A stretch of 64,000 nt of DNA, taken from the NCBI RefSeq assembly GCF_005943945.1, contig NZ_CP040710.1, positions 1 to 64,000 of the forward strand. Direction: 5' to 3'. Under the pieces are notes generated by a model. It was not told the origin of the DNA. It ran no database searches and saw only the letters and a list, made by a program, of their open reading frames with translations. This document shows positions 1,054-4,536 of the stretch, piece by piece. Origin of the DNA: Aggregatimonas sangjinii (lineage in GTDB: Bacteria; Bacteroidota; Bacteroidia; Flavobacteriales; Flavobacteriaceae). The stretch's first letter is position 1, and every line of letters starts with the position of its first letter. The translations under genes were made by a program, and so were the position numbers.

Positions 1054-4000
1054 ATGCAGTACAACTTCAATGAAATAGAGGCAAAATGGCAAAAGTTTTG
1101 GGCCGATAACCAAACCTTTAAAGCTGAAAACCACTCCCAAAAGGAAAAGTTCTACGTGTTGGATATGTTCCCCTATCCGTCAGGTGCCGGACTGCATGTG
1201 GGTCATCCGTTGGGGTATATCGCCAGCGATATCTACGCACGCTACAAAAGGCATAAAGGCTTTAATGTTCTACATCCTCAAGGCTATGATTCCTTCGGTT
1301 TGCCCGCCGAGCAATATGCGATACAGACCGGGCAGCATCCCGCTATCACCACTGAAGCCAACATCAAAACCTATCGGAGACAGTTGGACCAAATCGGATT
1401 TTCATTCGATTGGAGCCGTGAAGTGCGCACTTCAAATCCCAGCTATTATAAATGGACGCAATGGATTTTCATTCAGTTGTTCAATTCATGGTACAATAAA
1501 GATTCCGATAAGGCTGAGGACATTGAAACCTTGACTGTTATGTTCCAAAAGGATGGAAATACCAAGGTGCATGCCGTTTGTGATGACGATATTACGCCTT
1601 TTTCAGCGGCCGAATGGGCGAAATTTTCAAGCAAGGAGCAACAGGAAATCTTGCTAAAGTACCGTCTTACCTATTTGGCGGATACCGAGGTGAATTGGGT
1701 GCCGGCCTTGGGTACGGTGCTTGCGAACGACGAAATCGTAAACGGTGTCTCGGAACGCGGTGGCCATCCTGTAATCAGAAAGAAAATGACCCAATGGAGC
1801 ATGCGCATCACCGCCTATGCCCAGCGATTGCTGGATGGCTTGGATACTATCGATTGGCCACAACCCCTTAAGGATTCACAAACGAATTGGATAGGGAGAA
1901 GCGAGGGGGCTGAGGTGATTTTCCCCATCCCAGCCTTCCCCGAGGGGGAAGGAACACCTTCTGTACCAAGATATATGACTGGAGGAAATAATTCACATCT
2001 GTCGCTTGAAAGAGCAAAAGAAATGCGAAATAATCCAACCCCAGCCGAAGATGCACTCTGGCAGAGTATAAAATCCAAGAAGGTCGGCCATAAGTTTAGA
2101 AGGCAGCATTTGATCGATAACTACATTGTTGACTTTGTTTGTCTTGCGAAAAAACTAGTTGTTGAGGTTGATGGGGATATTCATGACCTGCAAAAAGAAG
2201 AAGATGAAATTCGAACAGCTGTTCTAAATGAGCTAGGGTTTATAGTGCTCAGATTTAGAAATGAAAGAGTTCTGGGAAATATAGATGCAGTTTTAGAAGA
2301 AATTGCAACTTGTTTAGATAATAGGAAGGTTCCCCCTTCGGGGGTTAAGGGGATATCAGTTTTCACCACCCGCCCCGACACCATCTTCGGGGTCAGCTTT
2401 ATGACCCTTGCCCCGGAGCACGAGCTGGTGCCAAAAATCACGACCCCGGATCAAAAAGCTGAGGTCGACGCTTATATCGAAGCTACGGCTAAACGTTCCG
2501 AAAGGGACCGAATGGCCGATGTCAAAACGATTACAGGAGCTTTTACCGGGGCGTATGCAGAACATCCGTTCACGAAGGAACCGATTCCGATTTGGATCGG
2601 CGACTATGTTTTGGCGGGTTATGGTACCGGGGCAGTAATGTCCGTGCCCTGCGGAGACCAGCGGGATTGGGATTTCGCAAAGCATTTTGGTATTCCGATT
2701 CCCAATATTTTTCAGGGGATTGATATTTCGGAAGGGGCCTTTTCGGATAAGGAAAAGACCATCATCGCCAATTCGGATTTCCTAAACGGCTTGCCCTATA
2801 AAAAAGCGGTAAAAACCGCCATCTACGAGTTGGAAAAATTGGGTCAGGGCAAAGGCAAGGTCAACTACCGCCTGCGCGATGCCGTTTTTAGTCGGCAACG
2901 GTATTGGGGAGAGCCTTTTCCGGTGTATTATGACGCATCGGGAATGCCGCAAATGCTCGATGAAAAGTTCTTGCCCTTAGAACTCCCCGAGGTCGATAAA
3001 TATCTGCCTACCGAAACTGGGGAACCGCCACTAGGCAACGCCAAGAAATGGCATTGGTTGCAGTATGGCGATGAGGGCAAGGTAGTGTCAAAAGAAGAAT
3101 TTGAAAAAGCCATTTCGGAAACCGAGCGTAGCCGAAGTGACGAAATTAAGGGTGGGCCTTTGGAATTGAACACCATGCCCGGCTGGGCAGGCAGTTCCCA
3201 ATATTTCAACCGCTATATGGACCCGCATAATGAAGATGAAATCTTCTCCCAGGAAGCCATCAACTACTGGCAGGACGTGGACTTATACATCGGCGGCAGC
3301 GAACATGCTACGGGACATTTGCTGTACAGCCGTTTTTGGCAGAAATTCATGTTCGATAAAGGCTTGGTGCCCAAAGACGAGTTTGCGAAGAAGCTGATCA
3401 ATCAGGGGATGATAACGGGGGAAAGTGCATTCTTGAGAAGAATAGTCAATGGGTACTATCAATATCAAGAGGGAATTTCTCAAAATGAGTTAGAGGAAAG
3501 TGAGAAGGAATTTGAGTCCATTTTTGATACCTATTTTTTGAACAATGTTGTTTCATGGGATTTGCTTAAAGGTAAAAAGCAACATGATGCAATCGCGGGT
3601 GAATTATATAAACTAGCAGATGTTTTTCCCAAGGATATCATAGAGGAGATATTTGAATCTTCAAAATTTGATGTTGATAAGATAACTTTTACAGTTTCGA
3701 AAATTCATGTTGATGTGGCTTGTGTTGATTTAAAGAATCAATTAATCTTAAATAAGTTCTTTGATTTTTATAAAGAGGATACATCTCCTAGTGAATTATT
3801 TATGACAAATGGCACATATTCTGTCTCCCGCGAAGTCGAAAAAATGTCCAAGTCCAAATACAATGTCGTCAACCCCGATGATATTGTCCAGGAATACGGC
3901 GCCGACAGCCTACGGCTTTATGAAATGTTCCTTGGCCCCTTGGAGCAATCCAAACCTTGGAATACGGCCGGCATCACAGGGGTGCACAGTTTCCTGAAAA

Positions 4001-4536
4001 AACTTTGGAAGCTCTACCATTCCGGACCCAATGGTGAGTTCAAGGCAAGCATCGCTCCACCTTCGGGGGAGTCGGAGGGGGCTCTAAAAACCCTCCACAA
4101 AACCATCAAAAAAGTTGAGGAAGATATCGAAAACTTCAGTTTCAATACCTCGGTCTCGACCTTTATGATTTGCGTGAACGAACTGACAGCCCAAAAATGT
4201 AGCAGTCGTGAAATTTTGGAACCTTTGGCAATCCTTGTTTCCCCCTATGCCCCGCATATCGCGGAGGAACTTTGGGAAAAGCTGGGCCATACCGAATCGA
4301 TTGCTACCGCGCCTTTTCCAAAATTCGAACCGAAATATCTGGTCGAAAGCGATAAAGAATACCCGATATCTTTTAACGGCAAAATGCGCTTTACGATGAA
4401 CCTTCCGTTAGACCTGTCGAAAGAGGAAATCGAATCGGCGGTAATGGCAAACGAAAAAACGCAAGAGCAATTGCAGGGTCGCACGCCCAAGAAAGTAATC
4501 GTTGTCCCAGGTAAAATCGTAAATATCGTGGGTTAA
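1054..4536 (+). CDS. leuS: Leucyl-tRNA synthetase with an in-frame DUF559 domain and further insertions
   Basis: Charges tRNA-Leu with leucine in the cytoplasm. Class I signatures are present: HVGH at residues 48-51, the WIGRSEGAEV stretch entering the CP1 editing domain near 280-289, FTTRPDTIFG near 437-446, the GWAGSSQYF motif near 710 and KMSKS at 930-934. The protein has 1160 residues, roughly 220 more than I would expect for a Bacteroidota LeuRS. The excess has three parts. Residues about 293-433 are a DUF559 endonuclease-like domain placed in the loop before FTTRPD. Residues about 794-925 form a divergent, visibly AT-rich stretch before KMSKS. Residues 1001-1010 (APPSGESEGA) are coded by a GC-rich hairpin. 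The frame is open throughout and the catalytic motifs are intact, so the enzyme is probably functional. It must be essential unless a second leuS exists elsewhere. Confidence 0.95.
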   Translation: MQYNFNEIEAKWQKFWADNQTFKAENHSQKEKFYVLDMFPYPSGAGLHVGHPLGYIASDIYARYKRHKGFNVLHPQGYDSFGLPAEQYAIQTGQHPAITTEANIKTYRRQLDQIGFSFDWSREVRTSNPSYYKWTQWIFIQLFNSWYNKDSDKAEDIETLTVMFQKDGNTKVHAVCDDDITPFSAAEWAKFSSKEQQEILLKYRLTYLADTEVNWVPALGTVLANDEIVNGVSERGGHPVIRKKMTQWSMRITAYAQRLLDGLDTIDWPQPLKDSQTNWIGRSEGAEVIFPIPAFPEGEGTPSVPRYMTGGNNSHLSLERAKEMRNNPTPAEDALWQSIKSKKVGHKFRRQHLIDNYIVDFVCLAKKLVVEVDGDIHDLQKEEDEIRTAVLNELGFIVLRFRNERVLGNIDAVLEEIATCLDNRKVPPSGVKGISVFTTRPDTIFGVSFMTLAPEHELVPKITTPDQKAEVDAYIEATAKRSERDRMADVKTITGAFTGAYAEHPFTKEPIPIWIGDYVLAGYGTGAVMSVPCGDQRDWDFAKHFGIPIPNIFQGIDISEGAFSDKEKTIIANSDFLNGLPYKKAVKTAIYELEKLGQGKGKVNYRLRDAVFSRQRYWGEPFPVYYDASGMPQMLDEKFLPLELPEVDKYLPTETGEPPLGNAKKWHWLQYGDEGKVVSKEEFEKAISETERSRSDEIKGGPLELNTMPGWAGSSQYFNRYMDPHNEDEIFSQEAINYWQDVDLYIGGSEHATGHLLYSRFWQKFMFDKGLVPKDEFAKKLINQGMITGESAFLRRIVNGYYQYQEGISQNELEESEKEFESIFDTYFLNNVVSWDLLKGKKQHDAIAGELYKLADVFPKDIIEEIFESSKFDVDKITFTVSKIHVDVACVDLKNQLILNKFFDFYKEDTSPSELFMTNGTYSVSREVEKMSKSKYNVVNPDDIVQEYGADSLRLYEMFLGPLEQSKPWNTAGITGVHSFLKKLWKLYHSGPNGEFKASIAPPSGESEGALKTLHKTIKKVEEDIENFSFNTSVSTFMICVNELTAQKCSSREILEPLAILVSPYAPHIAEELWEKLGHTESIATAPFPKFEPKYLVESDKEYPISFNGKMRFTMNLPLDLSKEEIESAVMANEKTQEQLQGRTPKKVIVVPGKIVNIVG
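1930..2352 (+). mobile_element. In-frame DUF559 (Vsr/PD-(D/E)XK-like) domain insertion inside leuS
   Basis: Residues about 293-433 of LeuRS match the DUF559 family: NPTPAEDALW (327-336), KFRRQ (347-351), IVDFVC (358-363), VVEVDGDIH (369-377) and VLRFRNERVL (398-407). D360, E371, D373 and H377 are retained at positions conserved in this endonuclease-like fold. The host LeuRS resumes immediately with ISVFTTRPDTIFG. Each border has a GC-rich hairpin: CCTTCCCC/GGGGAAGG at 1934-1952 and CCCCC/GGGGG at 2332-2344. An internal ATG (1975) could start a free-standing domain. No intein splicing motifs are visible, so the domain probably stays in the mature enzyme. Mobility is inferred, not shown. Confidence 0.65.
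3424..3830 (+). other. AT-rich divergent segment of leuS upstream of KMSKS
   Basis: Between the motif MITGESAF (residues 786-793) and REVEKMSKS (926-934) the DNA becomes clearly AT-richer than the flanking leuS sequence and the codon choice changes. The coded residues are charged and helical-looking, and about 80 residues longer than I recall for this region in related LeuRS proteins. Only the IHVDV stretch near 886-890 and the end (FMTNGTYSVSREVEK) resemble the family. The boundaries are by eye. Confidence 0.5.
4055..4081 (+). repeat. GC-rich hairpin repeat read in frame in leuS
   Basis: CTCCACC-TTC-GGGGGAG forms an imperfect 7-bp stem and is followed by a G-rich tail. It codes for residues 1001-1010 (APPSGESEGA). 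The core resembles the hairpin at the right border of the DUF559 insertion (CCCCCTTCGGGGG, 2332-2344), suggesting the same short palindromic family. Confidence 0.5.

Follow-up and report, generated by a model that had tools for sequence, protein, structure and literature searches.

Inteins that carry homing endonucleases are nuclease-bearing elements that sit in frame near the conserved motifs of essential genes, form lineages bound to particular sites, and are patchily distributed. The insert described here, which lies in the leuS gene of Aggregatimonas sangjinii, resembles them in being an in-frame nuclease near conserved motifs, with site-bound lineages of patchy occurrence. Unlike inteins, it has no splicing domain detectable in a Pfam scan, it occupies a variable loop, and its ends are formed by hairpin repeats.

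The nuclease belongs to DUF559 (PF04480), a family to which Pfam assigns no function. Free-standing genes of this family are also often flanked by hairpins, but the insert form carries an additional leader of the YxTA / YMTGGNNSH type. In the fold and sequence of its catalytic domain the insert is similar to I-Bth0305I, an EDxHD (Vsr-like) enzyme whose structure (3r3p) is listed as that of a mobile intron protein. In excerpts of its description, I-Bth0305I is an elongated multi-domain enzyme with a separate DNA-binding region (PMC3943268), whereas the insert is a domain of about 120 aa on its own, placed between palindromes and lacking a separate DNA-binding region.

Rickettsia palindromic elements (RPEs) are palindromes that occur in frame in unrelated genes and are translated, and the word “nuclease” does not occur in the review covering them (PMC10969869). 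In contrast, the palindromes considered here often flank a nuclease, and solo copies occur as well. The solo copies that are translated in frame in leuS of two congeners (G001 and G003) and in metH of A. sangjinii work like RPEs. The REPtrons of REP/RAYT systems, as outlined in part of a report, consist of short, often paired palindromes that flank a DNA-processing gene (PMC3733652). The same arrangement recurs here, but REPtrons encode a HuH tyrosine transposase and lie mostly outside genes, whereas the present element codes for DUF559 only, a Vsr-type nuclease, and has no Y1 HuH transposase. A search of titles and abstracts, with preprints and most subscription papers outside its scope, returned no DUF559 inserts of this kind.

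We consider it probable that the insert is a homing-like, non-splicing mobile element that is tolerated in protein loops as a linker-tethered domain.

Anatomy of the leuS insert

The window is the whole stretch of DNA that was analyzed, 64,000 nt in length. Its relevant features, all on the forward (+) strand, are these:

1054 to 4536, +, the leuS host gene with its insert, an uninterrupted ORF of 1160 aa
1934 to 1952, +, left palindrome, CCTTCCCC-GAG-GGGGAAGG, translated within AFPEGEG
1963 to 2328, +, DUF559 / Vsr-EDxHD-like nuclease domain with its leader (VPRYMTGGNNSH)
2329 to 2352, +, right palindrome, GTTCCCCCTTCGGGGGTTAAGGGG, translated as VPPSGVKG
4055 to 4084, +, nuclease-free palindrome in leuS, CTCCACCTTCGGGGGAGTCGGAGGGGGCTC, within APPSGESEGA

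The original prediction, made from the sequence alone, was that a complete DUF559 domain lies in frame in leuS, and profile searches bear this out; in agreement with that prediction, the insert covers about residues 294-433 of the synthetase. The product scores 874.7 bits against NCBIfam leuS_bact, and a Pfam scan recovers both the LeuRS domains and DUF559, the latter at residues 319-421 with a score of 120.9 bits (cut-off 20.6). The insert extends from the first palindrome (1934-1952) through the second (2329-2352) and takes the place of a short loop that separates NWIGRSEGA from FTTRPDT. The domain keeps the conserved residues E332, D360, E371, D373, and H377 (LeuRS numbering). Hairpins had been proposed at both borders and are present there: on the left a perfect 8-bp stem with arms 1934-1941 and 1945-1952, and on the right CCCCCTTCGGGGG at 2332-2344. 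G+C content is 37% in the DUF559 domain, 74% and 65% in the left and right palindromes, and 47% and 50% in leuS before and after the insert.

An AlphaFold model of the whole LeuRS is of moderate quality (pLDDT 72.5, pTM 0.59). A nuclease fold lies between two palindrome-coded borders, residues 296-311 and 425-431, whose pLDDT falls under 50, as it does in some other stretches of the model. In a model of this quality the palindrome peptides look like linkers.

The model used for fold comparison has a pLDDT of 84 and a pTM of 0.81. A Foldseek search with it gave E values below 0.001 only for 3hrl (E 2e-7) and I-Bth0305I (3r3p; E 1.3e-4, target-length TM 0.79); next came a mitoribosomal protein and Vsr (1cw0, E 0.011). 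The nearest solved structures by sequence are likewise 3hrl, a putative endonuclease, and 3r3p (E 2.2e-7), which is the catalytic domain of I-Bth0305I, a homing endonuclease. The predicted fold thus places the insert in the Vsr / EDxHD nuclease superfamily. Among 79 domains, twelve columns are invariant, including E29, D57, E68, D70, and D81, and H74 is conserved in at least 90%; this conservation is partly built in, because peptide patterns derived from those motifs had been used to find the loci.

Two other parts of leuS drew attention. The loop that holds the palindrome at 4055-4084 is not the same in the congeners that were read. The segment 3419-3825, between LINQGMI and EKMSKS, has a G+C content of 31% and is strongly unlike its counterparts in G001, G002, and G004, and G003 has a different diverged stretch there; it is possibly another insertion or a recombination hot spot.

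Copies in the genome, the genus, and other bacteria

A profile search of the 4.72 Mb genome found eight PF04480 matches. Three lie in long host frames, those of leuS, metH (1075 aa), and ileS (1287 aa), each with C/G palindromes at both borders; the others are four free-standing copies and one that resembles Vsr. At its N-terminus, metH additionally contains an insertion that consists of a palindrome alone, with 24 nt common to the right border of its nuclease insert, and a second loop of the gene has palindromic sequence. When metH was compared with congeners, the second loop was readable in two of nine and the N-terminus in eight of nine.

Palindromes free of any nuclease occur in the genome as well. 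One inverted pair (507370/507636) was read in sequence, and two further close pairs (3557700/3557774 and 3800879/3801010) are known from coordinates only. A RAYT was considered as the mover of these repeats and rejected: the genome has a single, weak Y1 transposase match (26.1 bits), whose locus contains no CCCC/GGGG palindrome.

Comparison within the genus reveals a polymorphic insert. The metH and ileS inserts are absent from all nine congeners, in which the frames measure 899-919 aa (metH) and 1137-1152 aa (ileS) and the sites hold short loops of 15 and 11 aa, respectively. For leuS, ten genomes were considered, that of A. sangjinii included, and nine gave a match. A nuclease between palindromes is present in three of the nine (A. 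sangjinii, G004, and G008), a solo palindrome occupies the site in two (G001 and G003), and three have neither (G002, G006, and G007); leuS of G005 did not fit the search expression. In G006 the loop, 23 aa long, may represent a worn palindrome. It had been foreseen that a domain shared by all close relatives, with no hairpin-bordered copies elsewhere, would be an old fixed one. This is not what the genus shows, and hairpin-bordered copies are found in metH and ileS of the same genome. In LeuRS of G008 (L011) an additional in-frame segment was observed near QHPKNTTE...YRRQLDKIG, in the N-terminal part of the protein.

A profile built from ten inserts found at least 528 confirmed relatives. Of the best 80, which were kept, 76 are from Bacteroidota according to their record titles, and 74 have an open frame that continues for at least 60 codons on either side; since the query was of the insert type, the set is skewed toward such copies. 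The inserts occupy recurring sites in about 15 host genes. Internal inserts occur in LeuRS, IleRS, MetH, RecG, RecJ, a UvrD-type helicase, methylmalonyl-CoA mutase, acetyl-CoA synthetase, class III CoA transferase, MmeI, and MazG, and DUF559 is fused terminally to HemD, IspF, and HisD. Restriction-type genes, recognized by eye, are also among the hosts. LeuRS has a second insertion site (L205, L210, and L211). MetH has two sites, and one MetH (L119, from G246) holds two separate DUF559 inserts, both in loops. Profile scans covered LeuRS and seven other hosts; RecG, RecJ, IleRS, MetH, HisD, IspF, and HsdR/methylase-like hosts are what we take them to be from recognized motifs, as is L008, presumably a free-standing Vsr-like gene. 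The insertion sites adjoin strongly conserved motifs of the host families. Some loci from separate searches represent the same or nearly the same genome, and the near copies L044 and L069 were omitted from analysis A2.

In the family draw, the insert was read in leuS of at least 17 genomes, of 290 with a leuS match. Among 30 leuS loci that were read, six carry the nuclease; in the remainder the loop is 18-49 aa long and in several cases holds palindromic repeats of unrelated families. In related genomes (L157, L158, L163, L165, and L173) this LeuRS loop contains nuclease-free in-frame repeats of the NVIASEAKQS / CHAEPVEAS type. Similarly, the second loop of one MetH (L016, from G024) has a repeat of the RHAKLDSAS type in place of a C/G palindrome.

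With the plain Pfam model, a family search gave frames of at least 250 aa for 47 of the 150 matches listed. Across the phylum, the profile matched in 98 of 247 genomes (E 1e-20), mostly in short free-standing frames among the matches listed. Two LeuRS loci stand apart. In L081, from a metagenome-assembled genome titled Candidatus Paceibacterota, the insert is at the usual site, and among the pairs listed its identity with other carriers is 52-57% for the insert and 44-46% for the host, which suggests transfer across phyla. L025, at the LeuRS site of G011, is what remains of a DUF559 domain after strong divergence: it scores 49 bits, its active-site letters are altered, and C/G palindrome peptides are absent; it may be a decayed or domesticated copy.

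Two further ideas about the family were set aside. Carriage on phages or plasmids was sought at E 1e-8 and gave 3 phage and 35 plasmid records, all below 60% identity. A role in defense was sought with PADLOC, which had no match for the window insert, the metH insert of the same genome, or L007, and weak ones for the ileS insert and L004.

Repeats, lineages, and the probable mode of spread

The right-border hairpin pattern in the window alone is within chance (0.32 expected; at least one in 25 of 100 shuffles). The genome and family tests rule chance out. In the genome, CCCCCN2-6GGGGG matches 22 times, at 21 places, compared with 4 times for the reversed control, and 4 of the 22 are situated at the borders of the three in-frame DUF559 inserts; CTCCCCTN2-6AGGGGAG has no match in the 4.72 Mb. 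In the family, represented by 132 distinct domains from L001-L144, a strict hairpin was found within 150 bp on both sides of 52 domains, on one side of 36, and on neither side of 44, by a detector that overlooks some real hairpins, that of our own metH included. At sham positions in the same loci, hairpins on both sides were found in 0 of 1431 cases.

The hairpins often lie inside longer terminal repeats, which were assessed in 126 domains with enough flanking sequence. At the ends of in-host inserts the inverted alignment scores above the direct one in 80 of 103 cases, and the reverse holds in 22. The 99% level of shuffled sequences is exceeded by the inverted alignment in 61 of 103 and by the direct one in 22 of 103, compared with 18% (inverted) and 8% (direct) for control ends taken from mismatched loci. 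Free-standing copies have direct repeats scoring above inverted ones in 13 of 23. The best terminal matches shown are mostly 30-51 nt long with the hairpin inside; L102, for instance, matches over 43 nt with a single mismatch, and L092 over 33 of 33 nt. Inverted repeats at the ends, as expected of a transposon, therefore characterize the 61 inserts above the threshold, and among the inserts of A. sangjinii only ileS (score 30) exceeds the shuffled 99% level of 21, with leuS at it (21) and metH below it (16).

Such ends raise the possibility that the element is copied in the manner of a transposon through its repeats, with the nuclease or a RAYT-like, hairpin-acting enzyme moving both the element and solo palindromes. 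The in-frame copies would then be those that selection spared, and allelic homing would be minor. The palindrome pairs without a nuclease fit this account, as do the solo copy at the metH N-terminus and the hairpins on both sides of 13 of the 29 domains in frames under 250 aa. Random transposition, however, would not lead one to expect single-site lineages across genera or a low-dS tract that extends into host DNA, both of which are described below. By eye, no target-site duplication was seen in the leuS, metH, and ileS alleles, in which host loop residues are replaced. We judge this account unlikely.

The lineages are evident in a tree of 127 distinct domains (score at least 90, exact duplicates removed), 103 of them labeled as in-host, our own three included, and one LeuRS insert (L050) counted as “other.” Site labels change 23 times, compared with 72.3 times on average when shuffled, and none of 200 shuffles was as low. 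Inserts of RecG (12), the UvrD-type helicase (10), IleRS (4), HemD (4), and RecJ (3) each fall on one side of a branch. LeuRS inserts take 10 label changes, and those of MetH site 2 are unclustered (3 of 3). Only 22 of 124 inner branches of this quick tree are well supported.

The dS values bear on the homing-like reading. In G004 and G008, which are of one genus, dS is 1.75 for metH and 1.31 for ileS, whereas for the leuS insert it is 0.15 (bootstrap 0.07-0.27). It rises to 0.34 in the next 68 codons and to 0.43-0.50 over about 100 codons upstream, and at codons about 61-245 it is 1.3-2.0 or saturated. A minimum that rises into the flanks is as expected from homing with co-conversion. Away from the insert, in the first 100 codons, dS is low again (0.28-0.66), a feature that homing leaves unexplained. 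GC3 is lower in inserts than in their hosts, and insert dS may be partly lowered for this reason, but low GC3 does not account for the low dS in the host flanks of G004 and G008.

Other pairs point in the same direction. Among 39 pairs chosen by common 3-mers, 31 were usable on all three parts, and in these non-independent pairs the insert has a lower dS than either host side in 19, a higher one than either in 3, and a value between or equal in 9. Seven of these pairs, chosen by hand, have a dS minimum at or near the insert. It is clear in RecJ and in the RecG genes of a pair of Tenacibaculum species (for RecG, 0.11-0.43 within the insert and 0.40-2.48 in flanking windows), and weak in Gillisia leuS and one helicase pair. 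The suggestion that the element spreads between leuS alleles in a homing-like manner gains support from these minima. The wider claim of a nuclease-bearing element that tolerates in-frame insertion into an essential gene is supported as well. The other option raised from the sequence, a domestication that alters editing or tRNA binding, may also apply.

A different possibility is ectopic recombination, in which something unrelated spreads the palindromes, DUF559 genes that chance to lie between them are swapped into solo palindromes already in genes, and the nuclease plays no part in movement. Palindromes of unrelated families do occupy the same LeuRS loop, and metH of G042 has similar palindrome pairs on both sides as direct repeats. 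Against this, the same nuclease family is present at every site found, albeit in searches all seeded with it, and the putative catalytic residues are retained, partly by ascertainment. We regard this possibility as quite improbable.

The inserts might also be an old and useful accessory domain, for example in tRNA or DNA processing or in defense, that is vertically inherited and often lost. Consistent with this, dN/dS of the insert is 0.03-0.24 in the 10 pairs, out of 12, that gave a value, indicative of purifying selection, and the nuclease therefore appears to be maintained. Purifying selection also counts in favor of the homing-like reading. Insert and host identities are also correlated (0.68 in LeuRS, 0.47 in RecG), and much of the inheritance is therefore vertical or local. 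On the other side, the hosts have no obvious function in common, metH and ileS of all nine congeners lack the domain, and PADLOC assigns no family to the window insert and only weak ones to the ileS insert. Moreover, near relatives have different lineages at one site: the LeuRS of A. sangjinii and that of G253 are 90% identical as hosts and 49% identical as inserts, so that different element lineages have taken the one site. An accessory domain of this kind seems very doubtful.

An intein, an intron, or a ribosome-bypass element whose product is removed would suit the location beside conserved motifs and the hairpin borders, but this is scarcely credible given a frame that is open through insert and palindromes (partly by construction, because host copies were picked by open frame), the linker-like palindrome peptides of the moderate-quality model, and a Pfam scan of the whole LeuRS that found no intein or Hint family at E 0.001, in agreement with the predicted lack of intein splicing; intein or intron identity was dropped for want of a supporting Pfam family.

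A homing-like element is the simplest account because it accommodates the polymorphism, the terminal repeats, the site-bound lineages, the low-dS tracts, and the homing-endonuclease fold. In its anatomy the element is a DUF559 nuclease of the Vsr/EDxHD type enclosed by two C/G-rich repeats that can form hairpins, and in many copies these repeats are terminal inverted repeats. Having neither a stop codon nor a recognized splicing part, it enters in frame in place of a loop that adjoins a conserved motif. It is translated as an extra domain tethered by palindrome-encoded peptides, which would leave the essential enzyme, here an unspliced LeuRS, able to work. The nuclease most likely cuts element-less alleles near the insertion site, and repair would then copy the element and flanking DNA into the cut allele. 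New sites may be colonized in turn, and the palindromes could also move, or stay alone. The element may spread by homing through cutting, by movement through its repeats, or by both.

Implications for DUF559 and its hosts

Here, conserved genes appear to harbor a nuclease element that has no splicing part. To our knowledge, the mover of in-frame palindromes is unknown, and this element is a candidate for it. We give about even chances to the broader proposal that these inserts are a new class of mobile element, namely splicing-free homing elements that invade essential genes in frame. Their tolerance would come from flexible linkers encoded by the palindromes and from sites in loops beside highly conserved motifs. 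If this is true, in-frame palindromic repeats would have the DUF559 nucleases as their autonomous partners, and a working nuclease would be part of every host enzyme, including LeuRS.

The finding also points to a likely biological role for DUF559 and to a route by which nuclease domains enter enzymes and are possibly domesticated there. Some aminoacyl-tRNA synthetases and repair enzymes would bear a nuclease that has gone unnoticed.
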